Source: Pseudarcicella sp.
Lineage (GTDB): Bacteria > Bacteroidota > Bacteroidia > Cytophagales > Spirosomataceae
Reading direction: 5' to 3'
Assembly (NCBI GenBank): GCA_017988135.1
Contig: JAGNSI010000007.1
Coordinates: 1-36,145 of the forward strand
DNA length: 36,145 nucleotides
Below the pieces are notes generated by a model, which did no database searches, had not been told where the DNA came from, and saw nothing but the letters and a program-made list of their open reading frames with translations. Positions 17,803 through 32,190 of this stretch are shown piece after piece. The first letter of the stretch is position 1. Each line of letters starts with the position of its first letter. Position numbers and translations under genes: made by a program.

Positions 17803-18874
17803 ATGACAAAAGACAGGTTCGGTGACCTGAAAGCCAGATTAGAGGCTTTGAGGAGGTATCTTTGACTACGATAAAAAAAAGTTTGATATTTCGGAATTAG
17901 AAATTGTAATTCAAGATCCCGACTTCTGGAGTAATTCCGAAAAAGCAGATAGAACCATGCAAGAAATCAGGGGTTTGAAATTTTGGACTGATGGCTTTGA
18001 TTCTGCAAACAACTCGTTTGAAGATTTATGCACTTTTATAGAGTTTTATGAGCTAGGTGAAGCTTCTGAACAAGAAGTTGATACGGAAGCTGAAAAGCTA
18101 GAATCGAAACTTGCGGCTCTTGAATTTAGAAAAATGATGTCTGATGAGGGCGACCAAATGAATGCAATCATCGAAATCAACGCTGGTGCTGGTGGTACTG
18201 AGTCTCAAGACTGGGCTTATATGTTGATGCGCATGTACTTGATGTGGGCCGACAAAAACAATTTTAAAGTTAGGGAGTTGAATCATAATGATGGAGATAC
18301 TGCTGGATTAAAATCTGTCACTTTGGAGATTAGTGGTGAATATGCATTTGGAAATTTACGCTCTGAAAATGGTGTACATCGTTTGGTAAGAATTTCTCCT
18401 TTTGATTCAAATGCTAGGCGACATACCTCTTTTGCATCTGTTTATATTTATCCTTTAGTAGACGATACTATTCAGATAGATGTAAATCCTGCTGATATTG
18501 AGTTTGATACTTTTAGATCTGGTGGTGCTGGTGGACAAAATGTCAATAAAGTGGAAACAGCGGTTAGGTTAAAACATAAACCTTCTGGAATTATCATAGA
18601 ATGTCAGCAAGAACGCTCACAATTGATGAACAAAGAAGTCGCTATAAAGTTGTTAAAATCTAAATTATACCAAATAGAAATTGACAAAAGAAACGCTGCT
18701 AGGGCAGAAGTAGAAGCATCAAAAAAGAAAATAGAATGGGGATCTCAAATTAGAAGTTATGTTTTGGATGACAGAAGAGTAAAAGATCACAGAACTAATC
18801 ATCAAACTTCCAACACAGATGCAGTTTTAAATGGAGAAATTAATGATTTTATTAAAGCATATTTGATGTCATAA
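17803..18874 (+). CDS. prfB: Peptide chain release factor 2, with +1 programmed frameshift
   Basis: RF2 frees the finished protein at UGA and UAA stops. The ATG at 17803 opens a 20-codon frame ([13 protein letters not shown]...RRYL) that stops at TGA 17863-17865; reading then moves +1 so that CTT (17860-17862) is followed by GAC (17864-17866) and continues to 18874, giving 356 residues. The frameshift site is the classic AGGAGG-TAT-CTT-TGA-C. Downstream are the RF2 tripeptide in [11 protein letters not shown], which reads UGA, and the GGQ motif in [13 protein letters not shown] for peptidyl-tRNA hydrolysis. A smaller gene starting at 17957 would miss the N-terminal helices, so the frameshifted reading is preferred. 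Autoregulation through RF2 level is known for this family. Confidence 0.95.
17851..17866 (+). promoter_or_regulatory. prfB programmed frameshift element
   Basis: An internal Shine-Dalgarno-like AGGAGG (17851-17856), 3 bases, the slippery codon CTT (17860-17862), then TGA C. Spacing is the same as in E. coli prfB (AGGGGG-TAT-CTT-TGA-C). When RF2 is scarce the ribosome pauses at UGA and slips one base forward. Confidence 0.93.
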
Positions 18875-19116
18875 TAAAATAGTCTTTTAAGTTTTTATAT
18901 GTAATATACTCCATTATTTATTGTAATGTATTTAATATATTTTATTATTATTTTAATAAATTCAAAAAAAAATGACTTTAAATTCTTTATAAGCCTTTTT
19001 TTTTAGATTTTTGTAAAATTTCTAATATTAGAGTTTATTTTTAATTTGTTTTAACTCAGTAAAGTCCTTTTTTTTACAAGAATAAAAAATTGTTCAGCAC
19101 AAAAAATATTCAATTT

Positions 19117-22100
19117 ATGTCTCAGCCGTACGTTCAAAAAATAGAAAGTTTATTAATTGCCAATAGAGGAGAAATCGCTATCAGAATCATGCGTGCCGCC
19201 TCTGAACTTGGCATTAGAACTTATGCTATTTATACATTCGAGGACCGTTATTCATTGCACCGATACAAGGCAGATCAAGCTTATCAAATTGGCAAAGATG
19301 ATGAGCCTTTGAAACCTTATTTGGACATTGAAAGTATCATCAAACTTTGTAAAGAAAAAAAGATAGATGCAATACACCCCGGATACGGTTTTCTTTCTGA
19401 AAATGTACACATGGCGAGACGCTGTAGGGAAGAAGGCATTAAGTTTGTAGGACCTTCTCCTGAAGCTATGGATGCTCTCGGTGATAAAGTTGCTGCCAAA
19501 GTAGCAGCTACAAAGGCCAATGTACCTATGATTCAAGATTCAAAAGCTGAATTATTGAATTATGAAATTGCACTGAGCGAAGCACAAAAAATAGGCTTCC
19601 CTGTAATGGTAAAAGCTGCAGCTGGTGGCGGTGGTAGAGGAATGAGGGTAGTGCGAGAAGAAGAATCATTACAAAAAGCTTTCAGTGAAGCAAAAAATGA
19701 AGCCAAAAATGCGTTTGGTGATGATACAATTTTTATTGAAAAATTTATTGACCAACCCAAACATATTGAAGTACAATTGCTTGGTGACCAACATGGTAAT
19801 TTAGTTCACTTATATGAAAGAGATTGTTCGGTACAAAGACGTTTTCAAAAAGTAGTTGAAATAGCACCATCTTTTGGACTAAAACAAGAAACTCGTGAGA
19901 AATTATATAGCTACGCCTTAGCTATTGGTAAAGCTGTAAATTATTACAATGCAGGTACTGTTGAATTTTTGGTAGACAAGGATGAAAATATATTTTTTAT
20001 TGAAGTAAATCCAAGAATTCAGGTTGAACATACTATTACAGAAGAGGTTACAGGAATAGACATTGTAAGAACCCAATTATTGATTGCTCAAAATTATAAG
20101 CTTTCAGACAATAATATTTTTATTTTAAAACAAGAAGATATTCCTTTGAATGGTTATGCTATTCAGTGTAGAATTACCACTGAAGATGCTTCAAACGGAT
20201 TTAAACCTGACTTTGGCACTATCATAGCTTACAGAAATGCTGCTGGTTTTGGCATTAGACTAGACGAAGGCTCATCTTATCCAGGGGTGAAAATTTCACC
20301 TTATTTCGATTCGATGCTTGTAAAAGTATCTGCCAAAGGAAGAACTTTGCTCGGAGCATCGCAAAGGCTTTCACGTGCTTTGACAGAATTTAGAATTAGA
20401 GGTGTAAAAACTAATATTCCATTTCTTAAAAACGTAATTACTCATCCTGTTTTTCAGCAAGGAAAATGTGTGGTTCAGTTCATTGATTCGCATCCAGAAT
20501 TATTCAACTTTACTGTTTCAAAAGACCGCTCAACCAAAGCATTAAGATTTTTGGGCGACATTATTGTAAATGGTAATCCTGACATCAAAAAAGATGTTAT
20601 TAAACTTAAAAACAAAAAAGTACTTCGTCAGCCAGTAGTTCCAATAATAACTGAACTACCACTAAATCACCCAGATGGCAACAAACAATTGCTAGACAGT
20701 ATGGGTGCTGATAAGTTTAGTAAATACCTTAAAGAGCAAAAGCAAATTTTTTATACCGACACAACATTTAGAGATGGACATCAATCTTTACTTGCCACAA
20801 GGGTTCGTACTAAAGATATGATGGCGGTTGCTGAAAGTTACTCAAAAAGCTTTCCTCAGTTGTTTTCTATGGAAGTTTGGGGAGGTGCTACGTTTGATGT
20901 AGCCATGAGATTCCTTAACGAATCGCCATGGAAAAGGCTTGAATCTTTCAGAGAAGCTATGCCCAATATGCTTTTACAAATGCTTTTTAGAGGTTCTAAT
21001 GCGGTTGGGTACTCAGCTTATTCAGATAATTTAATTGAAAAATTTGTAGAAAAATCAGCTCAATCTGGTATTGATGTTTTCAGGATTTTTGATTCTCTAA
21101 ACTGGATAGATGCCATGAAAGTATCTATAAAGGCCGTAAGAGAACGAACAAATGCTATTGCTGAAGCGTCTATTTGTTATACTGGCGATGTGTTTACCAA
21201 CGAAAAATACACATTAGAGTATTATCTTAACATGGCTCGCCAGCTAGAAGATACTGGTGCTCATATGCTTTGTATAAAAGATATGGCAGGCTTATTAAGA
21301 CCTTTTCAAGCTGAAGTTTTGGTAAAAGAGCTTAAAAAAGCCATTGATATACCTGTACACTTGCATACGCATGATACCGCTTCTATACAGGCTGCTACCT
21401 ACCTAAAAGCTATAGAAGCTGGAGTAGATGTGATAGATTGCTCAATAGCAGCCATGTCTGGTCTTACAGCTCAACCTAATTTCAACTCAATTGTGGCAAT
21501 GATGCAAGGCGATGAGCGAGAATGTCCTATAGATTTAGCTGTACTTAATCAGTTTTCAAACTATTGGGAAGATGTTCGTCAAATTTACTTTCCTTTTGAG
21601 TCTGAATTAAGAGCAGGAACGGCCGAAGTTTACGAAAATGAAATACCTGGAGGTCAATATACTAATCTAAGGGGACAAGCTATCGCACTGGGTGTAGGTG
21701 ATAAGTTTGAAATCATGAAACAAAACTATGTTGAAGCAAATAAACTTTTTGGCGATATTATAAAAGTAACTCCGTCTTCGAAAGTAGTAGGAGACATGGC
21801 TATTTTTATGACTGCCAATAGTCTTACTGCGGAAGATGTTTATGCCAAAGGCTCAACTTTATCTTTTCCTGAGTCGGTAAAAGATTATTTCAAAGGTGGA
21901 CTTGGACAGCCTTATGGTGGTTTCCCCAAACAGCTACAGGAAATAATCTTGAAAGGTGAAACTCCTATGACAACTAGACCAAATGATAGTATTTTACCAT
22001 TAGATTTAGAAAAAGATTACGCAGATTTCTTGGTTAAATTCCCCGAAAATGAAATGGGCGAACTAGACTATCTTTCGTATAAAATGTACCCAAAAGTATA

Positions 22101-22995
22101 TGAAGATTACTATAAGCATCATAATATTTTTGGAGATGTGTCTATGATTCCTACTCCTGCATTTTTGTATGGATTAAAACAAGACGAAGAGATTTTAATT
22201 ACGATAGACGAAGGAAAAACTATTATTGTCAAATACTTGTATCAATCTGAACCTGATGAGTCTGGCTTAAGAAATGTAACATTTGAACTGAACGGACAAG
22301 CTCGCAGAATAAAAGTACTTGACCGTAATATAAAAATAGAAAAACTTCAACATGCCAAAGCAACCAGCAAAGGTGATATAGGAGCACCTTTACAGGGAAG
22401 ATTGAGCAGAATTCTGGTTAAATCTGGCGATGAAGTTAAGAAAAATGCGCCTTTGTACATCATTGAAGCCATGAAAATGGAATCTATAGTTTCGTCTCCA
22501 TTTGAAGGTGTAGTAGGTAGATTAGTGCTTACAGAAGGTACAGTAGTAGAGCAAGAAGATTTGGTGCTTACTGTAGAAGAAGCTATTTTGCCAGAACCCA
22601 ACAAAGAAGAATACTTATTTGTGTATGGCACATTGAGAAAAGAATTTGGTAACGAATTGCACAAGCTTATCGATAGAAACTCAGAATTGGTAGGTATGGC
22701 TAGCTATCAAGGAAAACTATTTGATATAGGCGAATACCCTGGAATAGTACCTTCAGATAATAGCAATGATAAAGTAGTAGGCGAACTATACAAATTGTCG
22801 AATTCAATAAGATTGATGCGTATTTTGGATGAATATGAAGAGTTTTATCCTGAAAATATCAAAGATAGTATTTTTGTAAGACAAATAGTAAATGTAAATA
22901 TAAACAACGAAACGTCTGAGGCTTACGCTTATATTTTCAATAACGACACTAATGGGTTAAAAGAAATACAAAGTGGAGATTTTATGAATAAATAA
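19117..22995 (+). CDS. pyc: Pyruvate carboxylase fused to a C-terminal gamma-glutamylcyclotransferase-like domain
   Basis: A 1292-residue protein. Residues 1-1160 are a complete pyruvate carboxylase, which makes oxaloacetate from pyruvate, bicarbonate and ATP: biotin carboxylase with ATP-grasp loop GGGGRGM (about 170-176), carboxyltransferase from YTDTTFRDGHQ (546) with metal ligands in HTHDTAS (H750, H752), and a biotinyl domain with EAMKMES, biotin on K1120. After a short linker, residues 1166-1292 form a GGCT/AIG2-like fold: YLFVYGTLR at its start and LDEYEEF with the likely catalytic Glu. The carboxylase would normally end near residue 1155. The junction has no stop and no nearby ATG. The frame also opens nine codons earlier at a TTG (19090), but the ATG at 19117 fits the family. 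It heads an operon with GNAT and VanX-like genes. Confidence 0.93.
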   Translation: MSQPYVQKIESLLIANRGEIAIRIMRAASELGIRTYAIYTFEDRYSLHRYKADQAYQIGKDDEPLKPYLDIESIIKLCKEKKIDAIHPGYGFLSENVHMARRCREEGIKFVGPSPEAMDALGDKVAAKVAATKANVPMIQDSKAELLNYEIALSEAQKIGFPVMVKAAAGGGGRGMRVVREEESLQKAFSEAKNEAKNAFGDDTIFIEKFIDQPKHIEVQLLGDQHGNLVHLYERDCSVQRRFQKVVEIAPSFGLKQETREKLYSYALAIGKAVNYYNAGTVEFLVDKDENIFFIEVNPRIQVEHTITEEVTGIDIVRTQLLIAQNYKLSDNNIFILKQEDIPLNGYAIQCRITTEDASNGFKPDFGTIIAYRNAAGFGIRLDEGSSYPGVKISPYFDSMLVKVSAKGRTLLGASQRLSRALTEFRIRGVKTNIPFLKNVITHPVFQQGKCVVQFIDSHPELFNFTVSKDRSTKALRFLGDIIVNGNPDIKKDVIKLKNKKVLRQPVVPIITELPLNHPDGNKQLLDSMGADKFSKYLKEQKQIFYTDTTFRDGHQSLLATRVRTKDMMAVAESYSKSFPQLFSMEVWGGATFDVAMRFLNESPWKRLESFREAMPNMLLQMLFRGSNAVGYSAYSDNLIEKFVEKSAQSGIDVFRIFDSLNWIDAMKVSIKAVRERTNAIAEASICYTGDVFTNEKYTLEYYLNMARQLEDTGAHMLCIKDMAGLLRPFQAEVLVKELKKAIDIPVHLHTHDTASIQAATYLKAIEAGVDVIDCSIAAMSGLTAQPNFNSIVAMMQGDERECPIDLAVLNQFSNYWEDVRQIYFPFESELRAGTAEVYENEIPGGQYTNLRGQAIALGVGDKFEIMKQNYVEANKLFGDIIKVTPSSKVVGDMAIFMTANSLTAEDVYAKGSTLSFPESVKDYFKGGLGQPYGGFPKQLQEIILKGETPMTTRPNDSILPLDLEKDYADFLVKFPENEMGELDYLSYKMYPKVYEDYYKHHNIFGDVSMIPTPAFLYGLKQDEEILITIDEGKTIIVKYLYQSEPDESGLRNVTFELNGQARRIKVLDRNIKIEKLQHAKATSKGDIGAPLQGRLSRILVKSGDEVKKNAPLYIIEAMKMESIVSSPFEGVVGRLVLTEGTVVEQEDLVLTVEEAILPEPNKEEYLFVYGTLRKEFGNELHKLIDRNSELVGMASYQGKLFDIGEYPGIVPSDNSNDKVVGELYKLSNSIRLMRILDEYEEFYPENIKDSIFVRQIVNVNINNETSEAYAYIFNNDTNGLKEIQSGDFMNK

Positions 22996-23011: not shown

Positions 23012-23608
23012 GTGAGAGAAATCATTAATTTGATCACATTCAAAAGACCAGCCATAACCGATATTATTGAGGATATGGCTGGTCTTCGTATAGATATTTT
23101 CAAAGAATATCCTTATTTATACGACGGCAATTTGGAGTATGAAAAAGACTATCTTAATACTTATTCACAATCAGAAAATGCTATCATTATTGCAATTTTT
23201 GTAAATGGCTTGCTAGCTGGAGCAATTACAGGTTTACCACTTTCAGAAGAAGTAGATGAGTTCAAAAACGCATTTCTAAATAATGGCTTAACTATCGATA
23301 ATGTTTTTTATATTGGCGAATGCATTTTATTACCCCAATATAGAAACATGAAGTTGAGCAAACTTTTGTTTGATGAACTCGAATGGCTTATAAAACGAAA
23401 ACATATTTATAATACAATATGTTTTTCAACCGTTGAAAGACCTGAAAATCACCCCTTAAAACCTGATGATTATCTAAATAATGATCTAATTTGGCAAAAG
23501 AAAAGCTACGTAAAACACGAAAATATTTCATGTACGTTTGAGTGGAAAGACATTGACAAAAACGAAAGTGATGCTAAAAAAATGATTTTTTGGAGCAAAG
23601 AACTATGA
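23012..23608 (+). CDS. GNAT-family N-acetyltransferase
   Basis: A 198-residue protein with the GNAT core: strand 4 NVFYIGECILL (about residues 97-107) followed by the acetyl-CoA loop region LPQYRNMKLSKLLFDEL (107-123). The loop lacks the usual glycine pair of the R/QxxGxG/A signature, so it is a diverged member. The substrate is unknown. It starts with GTG (23012), 16 bases after the carboxylase fusion, and its stop overlaps the next gene as ATGA, so it is probably part of the same operon. Confidence 0.78.
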   Translation: MREIINLITFKRPAITDIIEDMAGLRIDIFKEYPYLYDGNLEYEKDYLNTYSQSENAIIIAIFVNGLLAGAITGLPLSEEVDEFKNAFLNNGLTIDNVFYIGECILLPQYRNMKLSKLLFDELEWLIKRKHIYNTICFSTVERPENHPLKPDDYLNNDLIWQKKSYVKHENISCTFEWKDIDKNESDAKKMIFWSKEL

Positions 23609-24475: not shown

Positions 24476-26038
24476 TTACTTTTTAATAAATTTCCTTGTT
24501 TCTCTTGCATACTTACTTTGTATGTGTACAAAATAAAAACCAACAGGATAGTTAGAAACATTCAATTCAACTTTTTGAATTTGAGATAAATTGTTTTCTA
24601 CTTTAATAGAATCTAATTGTCCGCCCATTGAGTCAAAAACTCTTATTTGTGTGCCTTCTCCGATATTAGAAAATTCAATATTCAATGTACTAATTGCTGG
24701 ATTCGGGTAAAGTTTAAAATGAAAATTACTTTTAGCAATTTCTTGGTTCAAATCTAATGGTGAAAGTATACCACCTTTAAATAATGGCAATGTTTGAACA
24801 TTTGGATTGATTACACTACCTACCTCACTTTGGTTTAAGCCAAGCCAGTTCTGTAGAATAGTGCCATATATATCCCTAAAGTCATACTGCATAGCTACAC
24901 CTTCATCTGTTCCTACTTGAGTATCTATTACTGGGTGGGTACCTAATACTTGTTTTTCTACACGTGAACCGAAAAGGAATACAGGTGCAGCAGTGCCATG
25001 GTCAGTTCCTAAAGCGGCATTAGAACGAATTCTTCTTCCAAATTCGGAATAGGTCATTCCGGCAACTCTATCCTCTACTTTTAGTAACCTAAGGTCGTCT
25101 TGAAATGCAGAAACTGCATCAGAAAGCTCTTTAAGTAAATCTGAGTGTATACCTGTAGTAGTTGCACCACTTACCGCTTGATTGTCATGAGTGTCAAATC
25201 CTCCGAGTTGCACTACGTAGACTTTTGTTTGTAAACCACCTGCAATTAAGCGTGCAACATGTTTTAATTTTTGAGCAAGATCGGTTGTAAGACTACTCCA
25301 TTTTGTTGATAAGTTGTTGCCAGAATTTGCAGCAGCACTTATCACTGAAGCAAACGCATTAGTCTGCTTTACGGTTTCATTTACAAATGATAACGCTTCT
25401 CCAAAACAATCTGAAGGAATACTTCCTCCTGCACTTACCAGAGCTGTTCCAGGATTGAAAGGGTCTAGCAATGATAAGCTATAGTTTGCATTTACCCCTT
25501 GGCAGGTTTCGGAAGTTATTTTCCCCATTGTTATGGCAAATGGGTGTGGTTTTGTTGTGTTTGGATAACCATTCGGATAGTCAGAATAGTTCAAATCGTA
25601 CATTCTTCCTATCCAGCCAGTAGTGTCAAAATCTTCAGCACTTGATGCGGAATTCCAAATATCGTTTGATCTAAAGTGAGAACGATTTTGATTAGGATAT
25701 CCTACATTCTGCACTATGCCCAAGCTATCCATGTTCCAAACATCTTTCATTCCTTGCATTGATGAATGAAAGCCATAGTTGTTATGAAAATTGATAATCG
25801 ATGATTCGGGAATAATGATATTATTTCTTACAGCTTTTAAGTTGGCGTATTGTGCCGAATCAAAAATTGTTGCTAGACCGTCATTTCCTCCTTGTAATTG
25901 AACAAGTACTAATATTTTATCATTATTAGCGTCAAACATAGTCGACTTTGGTTTTGCCGCCGCAAATAATGGAAATCCACCCATAGTAAAAGGAATGGAT
26001 GCCAACGCTGTATTTTTTATAAAATCTCTTCTATTCAT
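24476..26038 (-). CDS. DUF1501 family protein with Tat-type signal and T9SS sorting domain
   Basis: A 520-residue exported protein. The N-terminus NRRDFIKNTALASIPF is a twin-arginine type signal. The middle is the DUF1501 domain (sulfatase/alkaline-phosphatase-like fold), with LVQLQGGNDG near residue 43, FDTHDNQ near 283 and GTDHGTAAPVF near 346. Residues 442-520 are a type A T9SS C-terminal domain (KLYPNPAISTLNIEF ... YFVHIQ ... KFIKK), which directs secretion to or beyond the outer surface. The biochemical function of DUF1501 is not established. It is translated right after its usual partner DUF1800 (10-base gap). Confidence 0.88.
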   Translation of the reverse strand: MNRRDFIKNTALASIPFTMGGFPLFAAAKPKSTMFDANNDKILVLVQLQGGNDGLATIFDSAQYANLKAVRNNIIIPESSIINFHNNYGFHSSMQGMKDVWNMDSLGIVQNVGYPNQNRSHFRSNDIWNSASSAEDFDTTGWIGRMYDLNYSDYPNGYPNTTKPHPFAITMGKITSETCQGVNANYSLSLLDPFNPGTALVSAGGSIPSDCFGEALSFVNETVKQTNAFASVISAAANSGNNLSTKWSSLTTDLAQKLKHVARLIAGGLQTKVYVVQLGGFDTHDNQAVSGATTTGIHSDLLKELSDAVSAFQDDLRLLKVEDRVAGMTYSEFGRRIRSNAALGTDHGTAAPVFLFGSRVEKQVLGTHPVIDTQVGTDEGVAMQYDFRDIYGTILQNWLGLNQSEVGSVINPNVQTLPLFKGGILSPLDLNQEIAKSNFHFKLYPNPAISTLNIEFSNIGEGTQIRVFDSMGGQLDSIKVENNLSQIQKVELNVSNYPVGFYFVHIQSKYARETRKFIKK

Positions 26039-26048
26039 GGTTTTATTG

Positions 26049-27674
26049 TTACATTATTTGAAATTCTGACATTCTAACCATGACAGAAAATAAGCTTTTT
26101 AATTTGTTTTGTACAGATTGAAGAGTTAGCAAATTTGTAGGGTTTGCTAAATATTTGGAATATTCTACAGTCCATTCAAAATCAGGTAGTCCAGGTATAA
26201 GTACATCTTTTAAACTAGTTAATTGACCACTTGTTATTGGATAATTAAACATTATCTCCGCTAATTTATTAATGAGTATATTGGGGTCTTTAGCATTAGG
26301 AATATTCTTTACGATGTCTAATACAGGTACTAAAGTTGTAATGCTATAATTTTCTTCATTGTATGTGTATACTCCTCCATCAACCATCAATTTGCAGAAC
26401 TGATGACGTTTTGGCAATAATAAATTATTTATCCATAATTTGTCATATTGCGGTGCTTGGTAATATGCTTTCCAGCCTGCAACATTAGGATGATAATAAA
26501 GTGCCTGCTCCATGTCTGAACTCATTATATAATGATGATAAGCATGGTCATATTCTTTTCCTACATTATCTTGAGGTGGATTTATGCCTAGTCCTCTTGA
26601 AGCAGACATGATTAAATCCATAGGGCTTTTGATCATACACGCTGTAGATTGGAAAAAGTGTTCTGATTTAAAAAGAACTTTCAAAGCAGGTGCAATTTCG
26701 TAATCATTATTTCTTAAAATAGTTGCTAACGGTATGATGACGTTTGTTTCTATGTCATTTGTTATTTCATGACTAACAAACCAACGGTATAATTTTCTCA
26801 TAATAAAACGAGAACATTCTTCTTGTTTGAAAATTATATCAATTAGGTTTTTGTATTCTTGATTGCCACTTGAAGTAATTACAGCATTGTTAAACTTTGA
26901 TGACAATTGTTTATTACCTGTAGTGTGACTATTGGTAGAAAACTGTGCAGTTAATGTACTTGTACTAGAAATGGGTGGTACCTGCCAGCCAGTAAGAGCT
27001 TTTGCCATAGCTATGACATCGTCTTCTGTATAGTTGGTATAGTCACCTGGTGCTATTAATGGACCTTTTCCTACTGTAAATAATTCTAATAATTCTCTTG
27101 AATAATTCTCATTCGGAGCAACATTGGTGTTTTCTGCACCACTTAGGTACAATAACATCCCAGTATCTATTGTGATTTCTTTGGTCAAAGCTTTGAAGTT
27201 TCCAGTAGCAAAACTTCGTAATAGTTTGTAGTACAAATACTCTCTATGCCCAATAGTTCCATCAGCCACTACGAAATGATTATGCCAAAACAAAGCCAAT
27301 TTCTCTGTGATTGAGATACCAGAATAATGCATTTGCAAAATTGTCCATGAATAAAGTGACTTGCTTCTTGCTCTAAGCACTCTATTACGTAACATTGGCG
27401 GGCTTATATTGGGAAAAGGCACCGAGTTTACCCATGTTTGTCCATACAGTGCACCTGGGTCGTTTAGTTGGTTGCTACCAGTACCATCAGGAATGGTCTT
27501 TACTGGAGGATTTGGGATAGGCATTTGTTTAAATAACTCATCAATTGTACTATTTAACCCTAAATTTGTTGCACTATCTACCATCTGTATTGATGGTCCA
27601 AATGTAGTTCGTTTTAGAAGATGTCTAGCTTGCTTGGAGGTCCAATCTCCTGAGTATTGATCTAAATATGGCAT
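26049..27674 (-). CDS. DUF1800 family protein
   Basis: A 541-residue protein of the DUF1800 family, which nearly always sits beside DUF1501. Characteristic parts are ARHLLKRTTFGP near residue 16, LFWHNHFV (about 127-134), NENYSRELLELFTVG (about 187-201) and a late NVAGWKAYYQ. The reaction is unknown. The start is fixed: an in-frame stop lies 9 bases before the ATG at 27674, so there is no signal peptide, and no T9SS domain is seen at the C-terminus (ending FQIM). Export, if any, must follow another route than that of its partner. Confidence 0.85.
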   Translation of the reverse strand: MPYLDQYSGDWTSKQARHLLKRTTFGPSIQMVDSATNLGLNSTIDELFKQMPIPNPPVKTIPDGTGSNQLNDPGALYGQTWVNSVPFPNISPPMLRNRVLRARSKSLYSWTILQMHYSGISITEKLALFWHNHFVVADGTIGHREYLYYKLLRSFATGNFKALTKEITIDTGMLLYLSGAENTNVAPNENYSRELLELFTVGKGPLIAPGDYTNYTEDDVIAMAKALTGWQVPPISSTSTLTAQFSTNSHTTGNKQLSSKFNNAVITSSGNQEYKNLIDIIFKQEECSRFIMRKLYRWFVSHEITNDIETNVIIPLATILRNNDYEIAPALKVLFKSEHFFQSTACMIKSPMDLIMSASRGLGINPPQDNVGKEYDHAYHHYIMSSDMEQALYYHPNVAGWKAYYQAPQYDKLWINNLLLPKRHQFCKLMVDGGVYTYNEENYSITTLVPVLDIVKNIPNAKDPNILINKLAEIMFNYPITSGQLTSLKDVLIPGLPDFEWTVEYSKYLANPTNLLTLQSVQNKLKSLFSVMVRMSEFQIM

Positions 27675-28499: not shown

Positions 28500-28533
28500 T
28501 TTGATTTTATTCGAATTTTTTAATTTAATATTA

Positions 28534-31500
28534 ATGAAAAAATTGACTAATACCGCCATATTAGTTAATTTGTTCTTATTATGTGCTTCGTCTTTTTCTC
28601 AAGTTAAGGTTGAGAATAATTGGATAAATAACGAACAGATTTACTATAAATTAAAAGTATCTACTGAAGGGATTTTCAAAGTTACTCGCCAAGAGCTTGT
28701 TCAAGCTGGAATGGAGGTTACGAATGTTAATCCAATCAATTTTCAATTATATCATCACGGAAAAGAATTAGCTTTCAAGTTGATAGGGGAAGAAGATGGT
28801 AGTTTCGACGCTCAAGATTATTTGCTTTTCTATGCCAAACCAAACAATGGTGTTCAAGATTCACTTGTGTACAGGCCGGCTTCTGCTCGTATGAATAAAT
28901 ACCACAGTATGTATTCAGATAATACTTACTATTATCTTACAGTTGGTAATGCTGCAGGTAAACGCATGGTTTTTGAAAAAGTATATTCTGATGACAATAT
29001 TCCAGAAGAATCTTATCATTTAGAGGAAAAACTTATACTTAATACTCAAAAATATACTTTCAACGATTTTGTAGGTTTGCCAAGTAAACTCAAACAAAGT
29101 TACTATGTGGCAGGTGAGGGTAGAAGTGGCAATAAGATTTCTACACTTGTTGAAAATATAGACCACATTACATTGTCGAATCTTTTTAATGCCCAAAGTT
29201 CACCCAAACCAATTATAGAAGTAAATGCCAACGGTAGGTCATTTGGGTATAAAAAAGTACAGCTTTCGATTCGAAACTCGGAATTGAGAGATCTGACACC
29301 CTTTTTTATTAGCGACTTCAATCAGATTATCCATAAAGGAGAGCTCGAATGGTCAGACTTCGATTCTGCCAACTCTTTTTCACTTATTACCAAATGTACT
29401 AGCGCCGAAGCCAATCAGTTTTGTTCTATTACACACATAAAAATAGTGTATCCGCAAAGTTTTGACATGCAAAGTGTGAGACAAAAAACATTTTTTTTGC
29501 AACCTAGTGTCTCCGAAAATTCTAAAATAAATATTAAAAGCTCTGATTCTTTGCAATATGCACTCAACGTGACGGATTTTTATAATCCTGTGAGTTTGAA
29601 TTTTGATAAAGTTAACGATGGTGTCCAATTGATTTTATCAAGAAAAAACACAAAAGAACAGCTTTTTTTGAGTTCAAACACACATCAAGTAAGCGAAGTT
29701 AGTATTTTTCTGCCAATAGAATTGATTCAAGAAAAAAAGAATTTTTTGATAGTTACTCATCCTTCATTGCGTTCATCGGCAGAGCAATATGCTCATTACA
29801 GAAGCTCAGAGCAAGGTGGATCGTATAAAGTACAAGTAGAAACAATTACAAATCTGTACGATAATTTCACCTTTGGCGAAAAAAATCCGATGGCTATTAG
29901 GAAATATTTGAGTTTTTTGCTCCAAAACAATCATTTTCCTGAAAACTTATTTATAATAGGAAGTTCCTATTCGGCAAGTGACTCTTTAAAGTTGAAAGAA
30001 AATATTGATTTGGTGCCTACAGTAGGTTATCCAGGCTCAGACGTGCTATTGTCGGCTGGTTTAAACGGTTATTCAAAAGATGTACAATCTATTCCTACAG
30101 GCAGGATAAATGCTACAAATAATCAGCAAGTACTTGACTATTTGGTAAAAGTGATAGAATTTGAACATCCAGATTTCACCGTAGCTGCGTCTAAAAATAT
30201 TTTACACCTCAATGGTGGAAATACGACATATCAAATAGATTATTTCAAACAAGTGCTCAATAACAATGCACAAAGAATTGTCAATGAAGATTCTACCTTT
30301 AAGTTTGAAGCGATACAAAAAACGAATCCAGCTATCTATGAAAATGTAAATATAGCCGAGCAACTAAACAAAGGTGTTAAAATGCTTACTTTTTTGGGTC
30401 ATGCTACACCTACCCGACCAGACGTTAATATTGGTTTTGTGAGTAACACAACACTCGGTTATCAAAACAAAGGGAAATATCCATTTATGTATTTTGTGGG
30501 ATGTAGGGTTGGCGATATTTTCAATTACTACAACACTATTGGCTCAGACTGGATATTTACGCCAGAAAAAGGTAGCGTAGCAGTGTTGTCGAATAGTTAT
30601 TTTGCTTTTCAAGGATATGTAGAACCTTATTTGGAAGAATTTTATAAAAATTTATTGTCTCACAATAAATATAAAAAAGTATCAATAGGGCAAGCCATTC
30701 AGCAATCGTCAAAATATACTGCAGGTACGCAATATGGGACTTTCCCTTTTCAGATAGCACATTTACACCAAACTATTTTGCAAGGAGATCCATCATTGAA
30801 GTTGTATGTTGAACCCACTATTGATGTAGTTCTAAAGTCGGAAAAAGAAACTTGTATAGATAAAGATTTAACCATAAAAATAAAAGCTAATAGTCAGGCA
30901 GCACCCTATGTGTTTGATTATTCTTTTAATGATGTATTTGGTCAGATTTTGTCAGATTCGTTAGGGATGGCTAATGTATCTATAAATAACAAATCATTGG
31001 GCATAAATACTTTTATATTAGAAGGGGTTAGAAGTGCAAAAGGAATGCTGGATGTAAATTTTCTGAACAAAAGTATAAAGATAAATGTCACAGAGCCGGG
31101 GCTTTCATTGGATAAAGATGCGGCATCGTGCGAAATTCAAACAACTATCCATGCCGACTTGTATTGTGAAGGTAGCTGTAGAATAGCGGCTTCTATATTG
31201 TCAGTGGGGGCTTCACCTGTGCATGGTAAGGTGAATTCACAAGTTTTTATTGAAAATCAAATAATAAATGCTGCAGGAAAATCTTACTTGCAAAGGCATT
31301 ATGACATAGAACCAGTTTTAAACGCTACCACAGCAACAGCAAAAATTACACTATATTTTCTGCAATCTGAGTTTGATGCTTTCAATGAAAATGCTAGATC
31401 AAAAGGTTTACCTTTGCTTCCAAGTTACAATGCAACCGATCAGTCAGCAAAAAAACATTTAAAAATACTTCAGATTCATGGCGAAAGTGATGGAACTGGG

Positions 31501-32190
31501 TATGGCATAGAAAACTATCATGGCGAAAAAGTAGAAATCTCTCCTGCTGAAAATGATATAGTTTGGAATGCACAAGAACAACGCTGGGAAGTGAGTTTTA
31601 TGGTGCAAGGTTTCAGTGCTTTTTTTGTTACCACCAGGCCTTTGGCAGCACCTTTGGGTGTTTCGTTAGTAGATTTTAAAGTCAAAAAAGTTGAAGGTAA
31701 AAATAAAATCAGCTGGTCTGTAGCTGATGTTGAAAAAAACACTTATTTCGACTTGGAGCGAAGTATTTCTGTGACAGTTGGCTCAAAAAATCAATTTGAA
31801 AGTATTCAAAACTTCGTCGGTAATCAAATAGAATTTACACATATTGATTCAGAAAATAGTAATGCAGCTATTGTCTATTATAGATTGAAAATAGTAAATG
31901 AACAGAATGGGAGTGTTACATTTTCTAAAATCATAAAAATCGAAAACAATGAAAAAGATGATGAAGTGCAATTGATATTTAGTAATCCAATTGATAACAA
32001 TGATGAAGTGAAAGTATTAAATAAAGAAAATTTATTAGAATTGGAATTGATAAGTTTCAGTGGTTTGAAAATAAAAAAATATAAATTAAATGATAAAGTG
32101 AATTTGTTTGGAATAAATCAGGGTGGATATATTTTTAAAGTTGTACAGAAAAAAGGTAAAATAAGTTTTTATAAAGTGATAAAGAAATAG
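28534..32190 (+). CDS. Secreted gingipain-like C25 cysteine peptidase with T9SS sorting domain
   Basis: A 1218-residue exported protein. The signal peptide (MKKLTNTAILVNLFLLCASSFSQ) is followed by a long beta-rich N-terminal region, then a C25 peptidase domain (about residues 410-760). The catalytic pair is visible: H623 in FLGHATP and C657 in FVGCRVGD, 34 residues apart, close to the His-Cys spacing of gingipains. C-terminal beta domains end in a T9SS-type sorting domain (LELISFSGLKIKKYKL...GGYIFKVVQ). PorU, the T9SS sortase, belongs to the same family but lacks its own sorting domain, so this is more likely a secreted substrate peptidase. The frame opens at TTG 28501, but the ATG at 28534 starts the signal peptide. 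Confidence 0.88.
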   Translation: MKKLTNTAILVNLFLLCASSFSQVKVENNWINNEQIYYKLKVSTEGIFKVTRQELVQAGMEVTNVNPINFQLYHHGKELAFKLIGEEDGSFDAQDYLLFYAKPNNGVQDSLVYRPASARMNKYHSMYSDNTYYYLTVGNAAGKRMVFEKVYSDDNIPEESYHLEEKLILNTQKYTFNDFVGLPSKLKQSYYVAGEGRSGNKISTLVENIDHITLSNLFNAQSSPKPIIEVNANGRSFGYKKVQLSIRNSELRDLTPFFISDFNQIIHKGELEWSDFDSANSFSLITKCTSAEANQFCSITHIKIVYPQSFDMQSVRQKTFFLQPSVSENSKINIKSSDSLQYALNVTDFYNPVSLNFDKVNDGVQLILSRKNTKEQLFLSSNTHQVSEVSIFLPIELIQEKKNFLIVTHPSLRSSAEQYAHYRSSEQGGSYKVQVETITNLYDNFTFGEKNPMAIRKYLSFLLQNNHFPENLFIIGSSYSASDSLKLKENIDLVPTVGYPGSDVLLSAGLNGYSKDVQSIPTGRINATNNQQVLDYLVKVIEFEHPDFTVAASKNILHLNGGNTTYQIDYFKQVLNNNAQRIVNEDSTFKFEAIQKTNPAIYENVNIAEQLNKGVKMLTFLGHATPTRPDVNIGFVSNTTLGYQNKGKYPFMYFVGCRVGDIFNYYNTIGSDWIFTPEKGSVAVLSNSYFAFQGYVEPYLEEFYKNLLSHNKYKKVSIGQAIQQSSKYTAGTQYGTFPFQIAHLHQTILQGDPSLKLYVEPTIDVVLKSEKETCIDKDLTIKIKANSQAAPYVFDYSFNDVFGQILSDSLGMANVSINNKSLGINTFILEGVRSAKGMLDVNFLNKSIKINVTEPGLSLDKDAASCEIQTTIHADLYCEGSCRIAASILSVGASPVHGKVNSQVFIENQIINAAGKSYLQRHYDIEPVLNATTATAKITLYFLQSEFDAFNENARSKGLPLLPSYNATDQSAKKHLKILQIHGESDGTGYGIENYHGEKVEISPAENDIVWNAQEQRWEVSFMVQGFSAFFVTTRPLAAPLGVSLVDFKVKKVEGKNKISWSVADVEKNTYFDLERSISVTVGSKNQFESIQNFVGNQIEFTHIDSENSNAAIVYYRLKIVNEQNGSVTFSKIIKIENNEKDDEVQLIFSNPIDNNDEVKVLNKENLLELELISFSGLKIKKYKLNDKVNLFGINQGGYIFKVVQKKGKISFYKVIKK
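28546..28566. repeat. 21-bp palindromic element, copy 2 (inside the signal peptide codons)
   Basis: An exact copy of 28479-28499, 67 bases downstream. It lies in frame within the signal peptide and encodes TNTAILV. Together the copies bracket the ATG at 28534. Either arm of one copy can pair with the other copy, so alternative RNA folds around the start are possible. Confidence 0.85.

Follow-up and report, generated by a model that had tools for sequence, protein, structure and literature searches.

Pyruvate carboxylase (PC) is a textbook swinging-arm enzyme, the chain of which normally ends at the carrier domain. In the PC tetramer, the biotinyl domain has been described as travelling between active sites (PMC5895798 and PMC5059739, in the parts consulted). 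The second protein type relevant here is the gamma-glutamylcyclotransferase (GGCT)/AIG2-like family. In the consulted excerpt of PMC2954230, the site residues of A2LD1 are listed as Tyr7, Gly8, Thr9, Leu10, Ile50, Glu82, Tyr88, Tyr115 and Tyr143, and PMC7022552, also seen in excerpt, gives Glu82 as catalytic in GGACT. ChaC and glutathione are the subject of the part of PMC7340319 consulted. As for the allophanate hydrolase part of urea amidolyase, its N and C domains act in sequence according to an excerpt of PMC5770610.

The window analysed here (the whole stretch of DNA, 36,145 nucleotides) encodes a PC that continues past its carrier domain. The original prediction had placed a GGCT/AIG2-like domain in frame on the PC tail, which is borne out by an open frame of 1292 residues with a PF06094 match and the VYGTLR and LDEYE motifs; EAMKMES, with K1120, is also found in the translation as described (Table 1). 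An alternative TTG start, at 19090, is likewise open. Residues 7-1154 match the full-length NCBIfam model PRK12999 with 1661 bits (cut-off 965), and the biotinylation motif is invariant across the 27 fused tails aligned. About 137 residues follow the biotinyl domain, a cargo of about 14 kDa, which begins with the linker EEAILPEPNKEEY. The PF06094 match on residues 1167-1289 reaches E 3.2e-20 and 73.3 bits in the whole protein, and 78.7 bits when the domain is scored alone, for a cut-off of 22.8. The interval first proposed for the domain, 22471-22995, does contain this match (about 22615-22983), but its start sits at the biotin motif and takes in the second half of the biotinyl domain.

Table 1. 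Positions in the window of the fused gene and of its parts
Feature	Position	Strand	Basis or remark
Fused gene, PC with C-terminal GGACT-family domain	19117..22995	+	1292 aa, ATG at 19117
PC part, residues 1-1154 (biotin carboxylase, carboxyltransferase, PYC_OADA, biotinyl)	19117..22578	+	Pfam and NCBIfam matches
EAMKMES biotinylation motif	22465..22485	+	Translation; K1120 codon at 22474-22476
Linker from biotinyl to GGACT domain, contains LPEP	22579..22614	+	Length fixed within the clade
GGACT/AIG2-like domain, PF06094, residues 1167-1289	22615..22983	+	Pfam match
YGTL substrate-loop motif	22624..22635	+	Corresponds to Tyr7-Leu10 of mouse A2LD1 (PMC2954230, excerpt)
E1241 within LDEYE, catalytic-Glu position	22837..22839	+	Aligned with Glu82 of GGACT/A2LD1 (PMC7022552, excerpt)

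GTG and TTG codons, but no ATG, occur in frame between 22525 and 22633, in agreement with the claim that no ATG lies near the junction, and no Met occurs in the linker of any of the 39 distinct fused tails. An internal TTG or GTG start yielding a separate GGCT product is possible. A 198-residue gene, for which Pfam gave no match at E 0.001, lies 17 bp downstream of the fused gene (23012-23608) and may share its transcript. Further along, the window encodes a DUF1501 protein with a Por secretion tail adjoining a DUF1800 protein (24476-27674), and a 1229-residue Peptidase C25 protein (28501-32190), all of which are typical of bacteria with type IX secretion. Upstream, the release factor 2 gene (17803-18874, PCRF and RF-1 domains) has its start in another frame and carries AGGAGG followed by CTTTGA, which we take to be the usual, ordinary layout of the programmed +1 frameshift of prfB.

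When 222 genomes of the family to which the window's genome belongs were searched, 217 gave a GGCT match; the function is therefore present almost throughout the family. In 55 of these 222 genomes, window included, the match lies on the PC frame. These belong to eight genera (g1, g2, g3, g12, g13, g18, g24 and g31), with assemblies spanning 1.5 to 7.1 Mb. The same domain order is thus found in other carboxylases, as the original prediction had proposed to check, and the relatives in which the two parts are separate genes belong to other genera; neither of the outcomes that the prediction named as refuting it was encountered. The conserved junction shared by 55 genomes also rules out a mistaken choice of start codon, as had been argued from the sequence alone. 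The fusion is real and stably inherited. The fused frame is open over 1280-1341 residues in 48 of the 55 genomes; six of the seven shorter frames reach, or seem by their coordinates to reach, a contig end (G003, G008, G026, G028, G034 and G036), and in the seventh (G046) PC is broken into two frames. One further genome of genus g2 (G037) lacks both GGCT and the second half of PC, which is consistent with a missing contig. Each fused genome has a single GGCT match, except for an Arcicella aurantiaca record (G039), where the second match is an 85-residue 3' fragment. About 600 bp downstream of the fused gene, its 3' end recurs in this record as a near-copy of 237 bp (94.5%; L036 6703-7540, L109 6548-7385), with a DUF6934 gene in between, as if a cassette had been inserted at that end and had restored it. 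The other GGCT matches, among the matches listed (to E 1.6e-16), are short frames of 85-231 residues.

Among named records, the fusion is present in, for example, Arcicella rosea, Arcicella aurantiaca DSM 22214 and Flectobacillus longus; 26 of 30 loci cover the junction. It is also carried by records labelled Cellulophaga sp. BC115SP and by Spirosoma fluviale metagenome-assembled genomes (L032, L041, L044, L050, L051 and L056), which group with Flectobacillus or with a small-genome genus, and the names of which look wrong. Outside the fused genera, no PC-length frame with GGCT was found in an order sample of 390 genomes (109 with a match) or in a phylum sample of 392 genomes (58 with a match). 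Longer GGCT frames exist elsewhere (434 residues in G305, 441 in G532 and G537, 285 in G846, 271 in G701). Inspection of those of G305, G532, G846 and G701 revealed no second recognisable enzyme joined to GGCT, and by our reading of the sequences these seem to be long open frames, or frames that overlap unrelated genes. In plasmids, 22 records matched, all below 60% identity; among the ten of these listed, eight are annotated as separate cyclotransferase proteins and two have no annotated feature.

The 59 fused reading frames reduce to 39 distinct tails, one of which (L054) is cut by a contig end. All 39 have exactly 27 residues between VVEQ and YGTL, and all contain LPEP, YGTL and LDEYE. The corresponding motifs YG[TS]L and LDxYE are present in the 19 full-length standalone proteins, a count from which L109, L061, L036 and L011, fragments of one gene, were excluded. 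Across 57 aligned domains and standalone proteins, the invariant positions are Y8, G9, L11, P46, G60, L75, D76, Y78, E79, R93, Y110 and G125. Over the 81 pairs among the 39 tails with a domain dS of 0.1-1.2, a Nei-Gojobori script gave a median dN/dS of 0.066 for the GGACT domain and 0.016 for the preceding part; the domain is under purifying selection. At matched PC identity, fused GGCTs resemble each other more than standalone ones do: 50.7% (39 pairs) versus 37.6% (5 pairs) at 78-82% PC identity, 52.1% (72) versus 42.3% (10) at 82-86%, and 60.6% (49) versus 53.1% (2) at 86-90%, in a comparison where the unfused set comprises 12 genomes and 66 pairs, with at most 25 per bin, where pairs are non-independent and where the standalone genes are perhaps not all strict orthologues. 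Together with the rigid linker and LPEP, this higher identity hints at a constraint beyond chance fusion.

The domain aligns with YtfP, YkqA and mouse and human GGACT. Its predicted fold matches YkqA (Z 13.0), mouse A2LD1 (12.3) and human GGACT (12.2), and also the allophanate hydrolase C domain of Kluyveromyces lactis (K. lactis, 5i8i) with Z 10.7 and an rmsd of 2.8 over 112 residues. In a first structure model, the GGACT domain is good (pLDDT mostly 83-92 per block of ten residues) and the biotinyl domain poor. In a second one, extending from the carboxyltransferase to the end, the mean pLDDT is 43 and the GGACT domain is the sole long part that is well modelled. Neither model fixes its position relative to PC. 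With its predicted fold, the YGTL motif and the catalytic-Glu position kept, the domain is apparently an intact enzyme.

In the 17 unfused relatives listed, PC measures 1144-1168 residues and terminates just past the biotinyl domain. The cyclotransferase of the unfused relatives examined is encoded by a gene of its own at another locus. In the PC tree, 22 fused PCs form one clade (SH-aLRT 100), with g16 and g32 as nearest unfused genera. In the GGCT tree, which has little resolution because of few columns and long branches, and in which some standalone genes entered twice from two loci, a branch (94/90; found in 95% of 200 bootstrap trees) separates the 37 fused domains from the rest, and the standalone genes of g9, g17 and g22 are nearest to them. 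Each tree fits a single origin. The two differ as to which unfused genera are nearest, and the domain might have been transferred from another lineage.

The former location of the gene could be approached through its standalone relatives. In 18 neighbourhoods (from 19 standalone loci, L102 being dropped), the standalone gene is found beside ispG-mmcQ in seven cases and near gldC in five; ispG, mmcQ, gldC and cinA are presumed names, taken from our own reading of the sequences. The standalone loci (L091-L110) show at least three neighbourhood types (ispG-mmcQ-gldC, between families F3 and F8, and others), so the gene seems to have moved repeatedly. In nine fused genomes, no cyclotransferase was detected in the gldC neighbourhood, a search up to E 10 giving chance-level matches alone, and the gene has thus apparently moved and fused to PC. 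One of the nine (G152) keeps ispG, mmcQ, a TPR gene and gldC together, in an intact ispG-mmcQ-TPR gene-gldC-cinA order, and has a 346-residue gene with a CxxC stretch, which we take to be thioredoxin-like, at the site expected for the cyclotransferase. Three others keep ispG near gldC, and five have gldC without ispG in the stretch fetched; in a tenth fused genome (G127), no gldC match was found. Fusion through the loss of a stop codon between neighbouring genes is unsupported: none of the stretches around the 19 full-length standalone genes (L091-L110 minus L109) contains a PC frame above 60% identity. PC and GGCT share a contig in the unfused genomes G176, G200, G047, G129 and G217, where they are far apart, and no intermediate with adjacent yet separate genes was found among the relatives examined.

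The best explanation, to which we give a probability of about 0.6, is a bifunctional enzyme, with the one cyclotransferase detected in the genome riding on PC's mobile carrier arm. The clade lies within one Bacteroidetes family. In its ancestor, the sole cyclotransferase gene would have left, or been lost from, the locus near ispG and gldC, and a copy would have been added in frame where the PC gene naturally ends, just past the biotinyl domain. The PC part would work as a normal tetrameric PC making oxaloacetate. The GGACT domain would use E1241 to cut a gamma-glutamyl-amine or gamma-glutamyl-amino-acid bond through internal cyclisation, giving 5-oxoproline, and would travel with the biotinyl domain, or be tethered nearby, through about a dozen residues. 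The fusion may have persisted because the only cyclotransferase copy detected is in it and is expressed together with a housekeeping enzyme. This bifunctional reading is favoured by the single match per fused genome (the G039 fragment apart), the near-universal presence of GGCT in the family, the conserved YGTL and LDEYE, the low dN/dS and GGACT-type fold of the domain, the single origin that fits both trees, and the nine gldC loci from which the gene is missing. The trees' disagreement on the nearest unfused genera counts against it, as do the hints of extra constraint on the linker and the domain.

The metabolic context also weighs against the bifunctional reading, gamma-glutamyl pathway genes being sparse in fused genomes. 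Profile searches of the window's genome gave no match to PF04107, PF01019 or PF03746, which we take to be gamma-glutamylcysteine synthetase type 2, gamma-glutamyl transpeptidase and the 5-oxoprolinase subunit PxpA, respectively. Among 20 family genomes, ten fused and ten unfused, PF04107 was found in 4/10 fused versus 10/10 unfused and PF03746 in 1/10 versus 6/10, kinship among genomes being ignored in both comparisons, and PF01019 in 9/10 versus 10/10. Glutathione breakdown or 5-oxoproline recycling is thus a poor explanation of the fusion, and the metabolic link that the original prediction had offered as speculation is accordingly unsupported. Gamma-glutamyl-amine chemistry is possible for the domain.

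The chief alternative is a regulatory or coupled role, which the structure models do not separate from the bifunctional reading. On the swinging biotinyl carrier, the domain might modulate carboxylation, by steric effects or ligand sensing, or exchange a substrate or product with PC, and the fusion would have been selected for that. We consider such coupling rather unlikely, while giving it real weight: linker length and LPEP are identical in all 39 tails, at matched PC identity, fused GGCTs are closer to one another than standalone ones are, and the fusion was kept across eight genera and a wide range of assembly sizes. The biotinyl domain of PC also moves between active sites by several paths (PMC5895798, excerpt). 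However, the identity comparison draws on non-independent pairs and 12 unfused genomes, high expression alone can slow change, neither model places the domain relative to PC, and a metabolic link was not found with the three families sought in 20 genomes. A stronger form of the idea, in which a competent GGCT-family domain on the mobile arm joins in or controls the carboxylase as a new PC architecture selected over the history of the eight genera, is doubtful; the domain could then, for example, sense or remove a gamma-glutamyl or amine-linked metabolite, tying nitrogen status to anaplerosis.

Chemistry on a carboxy compound is improbable. The C domain of allophanate hydrolase decarboxylates, and by analogy the substrate of the present domain would be a by-product of the biotin cycle, carboxylated or damaged, instead of a gamma-glutamyl compound; the same fold in 5i8i offers a precedent within a biotin-carboxylase polypeptide. 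Yet the sequence is plainly of the GGACT family, with YGTL and LDEYE, PF06094 was the sole family reported in Pfam scans of the domain stretch at E 0.01, and many GGCT enzymes share the fold, with a comparable or higher Z. Finally, although the draft genome is in 253 contigs, one of which is the window, an artefact (missed stop, indel, chimeric assembly or decaying readthrough tail) is refuted in practice by the conserved junction, identical in 55 genomes that include named isolate records of Arcicella and Flectobacillus, as well as by the 39 distinct tails and the low dN/dS of the domain.

The fusion architecture is probably displayed in protein databases without comment. No description of a fusion between PC and a GGCT/AIG2-like domain was found in the open-access literature, a scope outside which subscription papers mostly fall, and the parts of PMC3199775 and PMC5059739 consulted do not mention one. 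A natural PC with about 14 kDa of cargo on its arm offers a direct test of the load tolerated by carrier translocation. It also provides a clue to the role of AIG2-like proteins in bacteria, which almost all genomes of this family encode and which are here tied to anaplerosis. The event is a clean case of a gene that disappeared from its former site and became fused at another, with no gene adjacency seen in unfused relatives. Compared with known single-chain PCs (PRK12999/TIGR01235), the protein has a complete PRK12999 match and an intact biotin lysine motif, but it continues after the biotinyl domain where its unfused relatives stop. With GGACT/A2LD1, bacterial YtfP and YkqA (PF06094), it shares the Pfam match and the predicted fold, as well as the YGTL motif and catalytic-Glu position of GGACT; these are separate proteins, whereas here the domain is a carboxylase tail. 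YkqA has 285 residues, the first part of which is covered by the match, and YtfP lacks the catalytic Glu in the alignment. The urea amidolyase of K. lactis (5i8i) likewise has a GGCT-fold domain inside a biotin-dependent carboxylase polypeptide. That domain, however, is the allophanate hydrolase C domain, at residues 483-610 of a chain of about 1660 and before the carboxylase, whereas the one described here is of GGACT-type sequence and lies at the extreme C terminus, past the biotinyl domain of PC.
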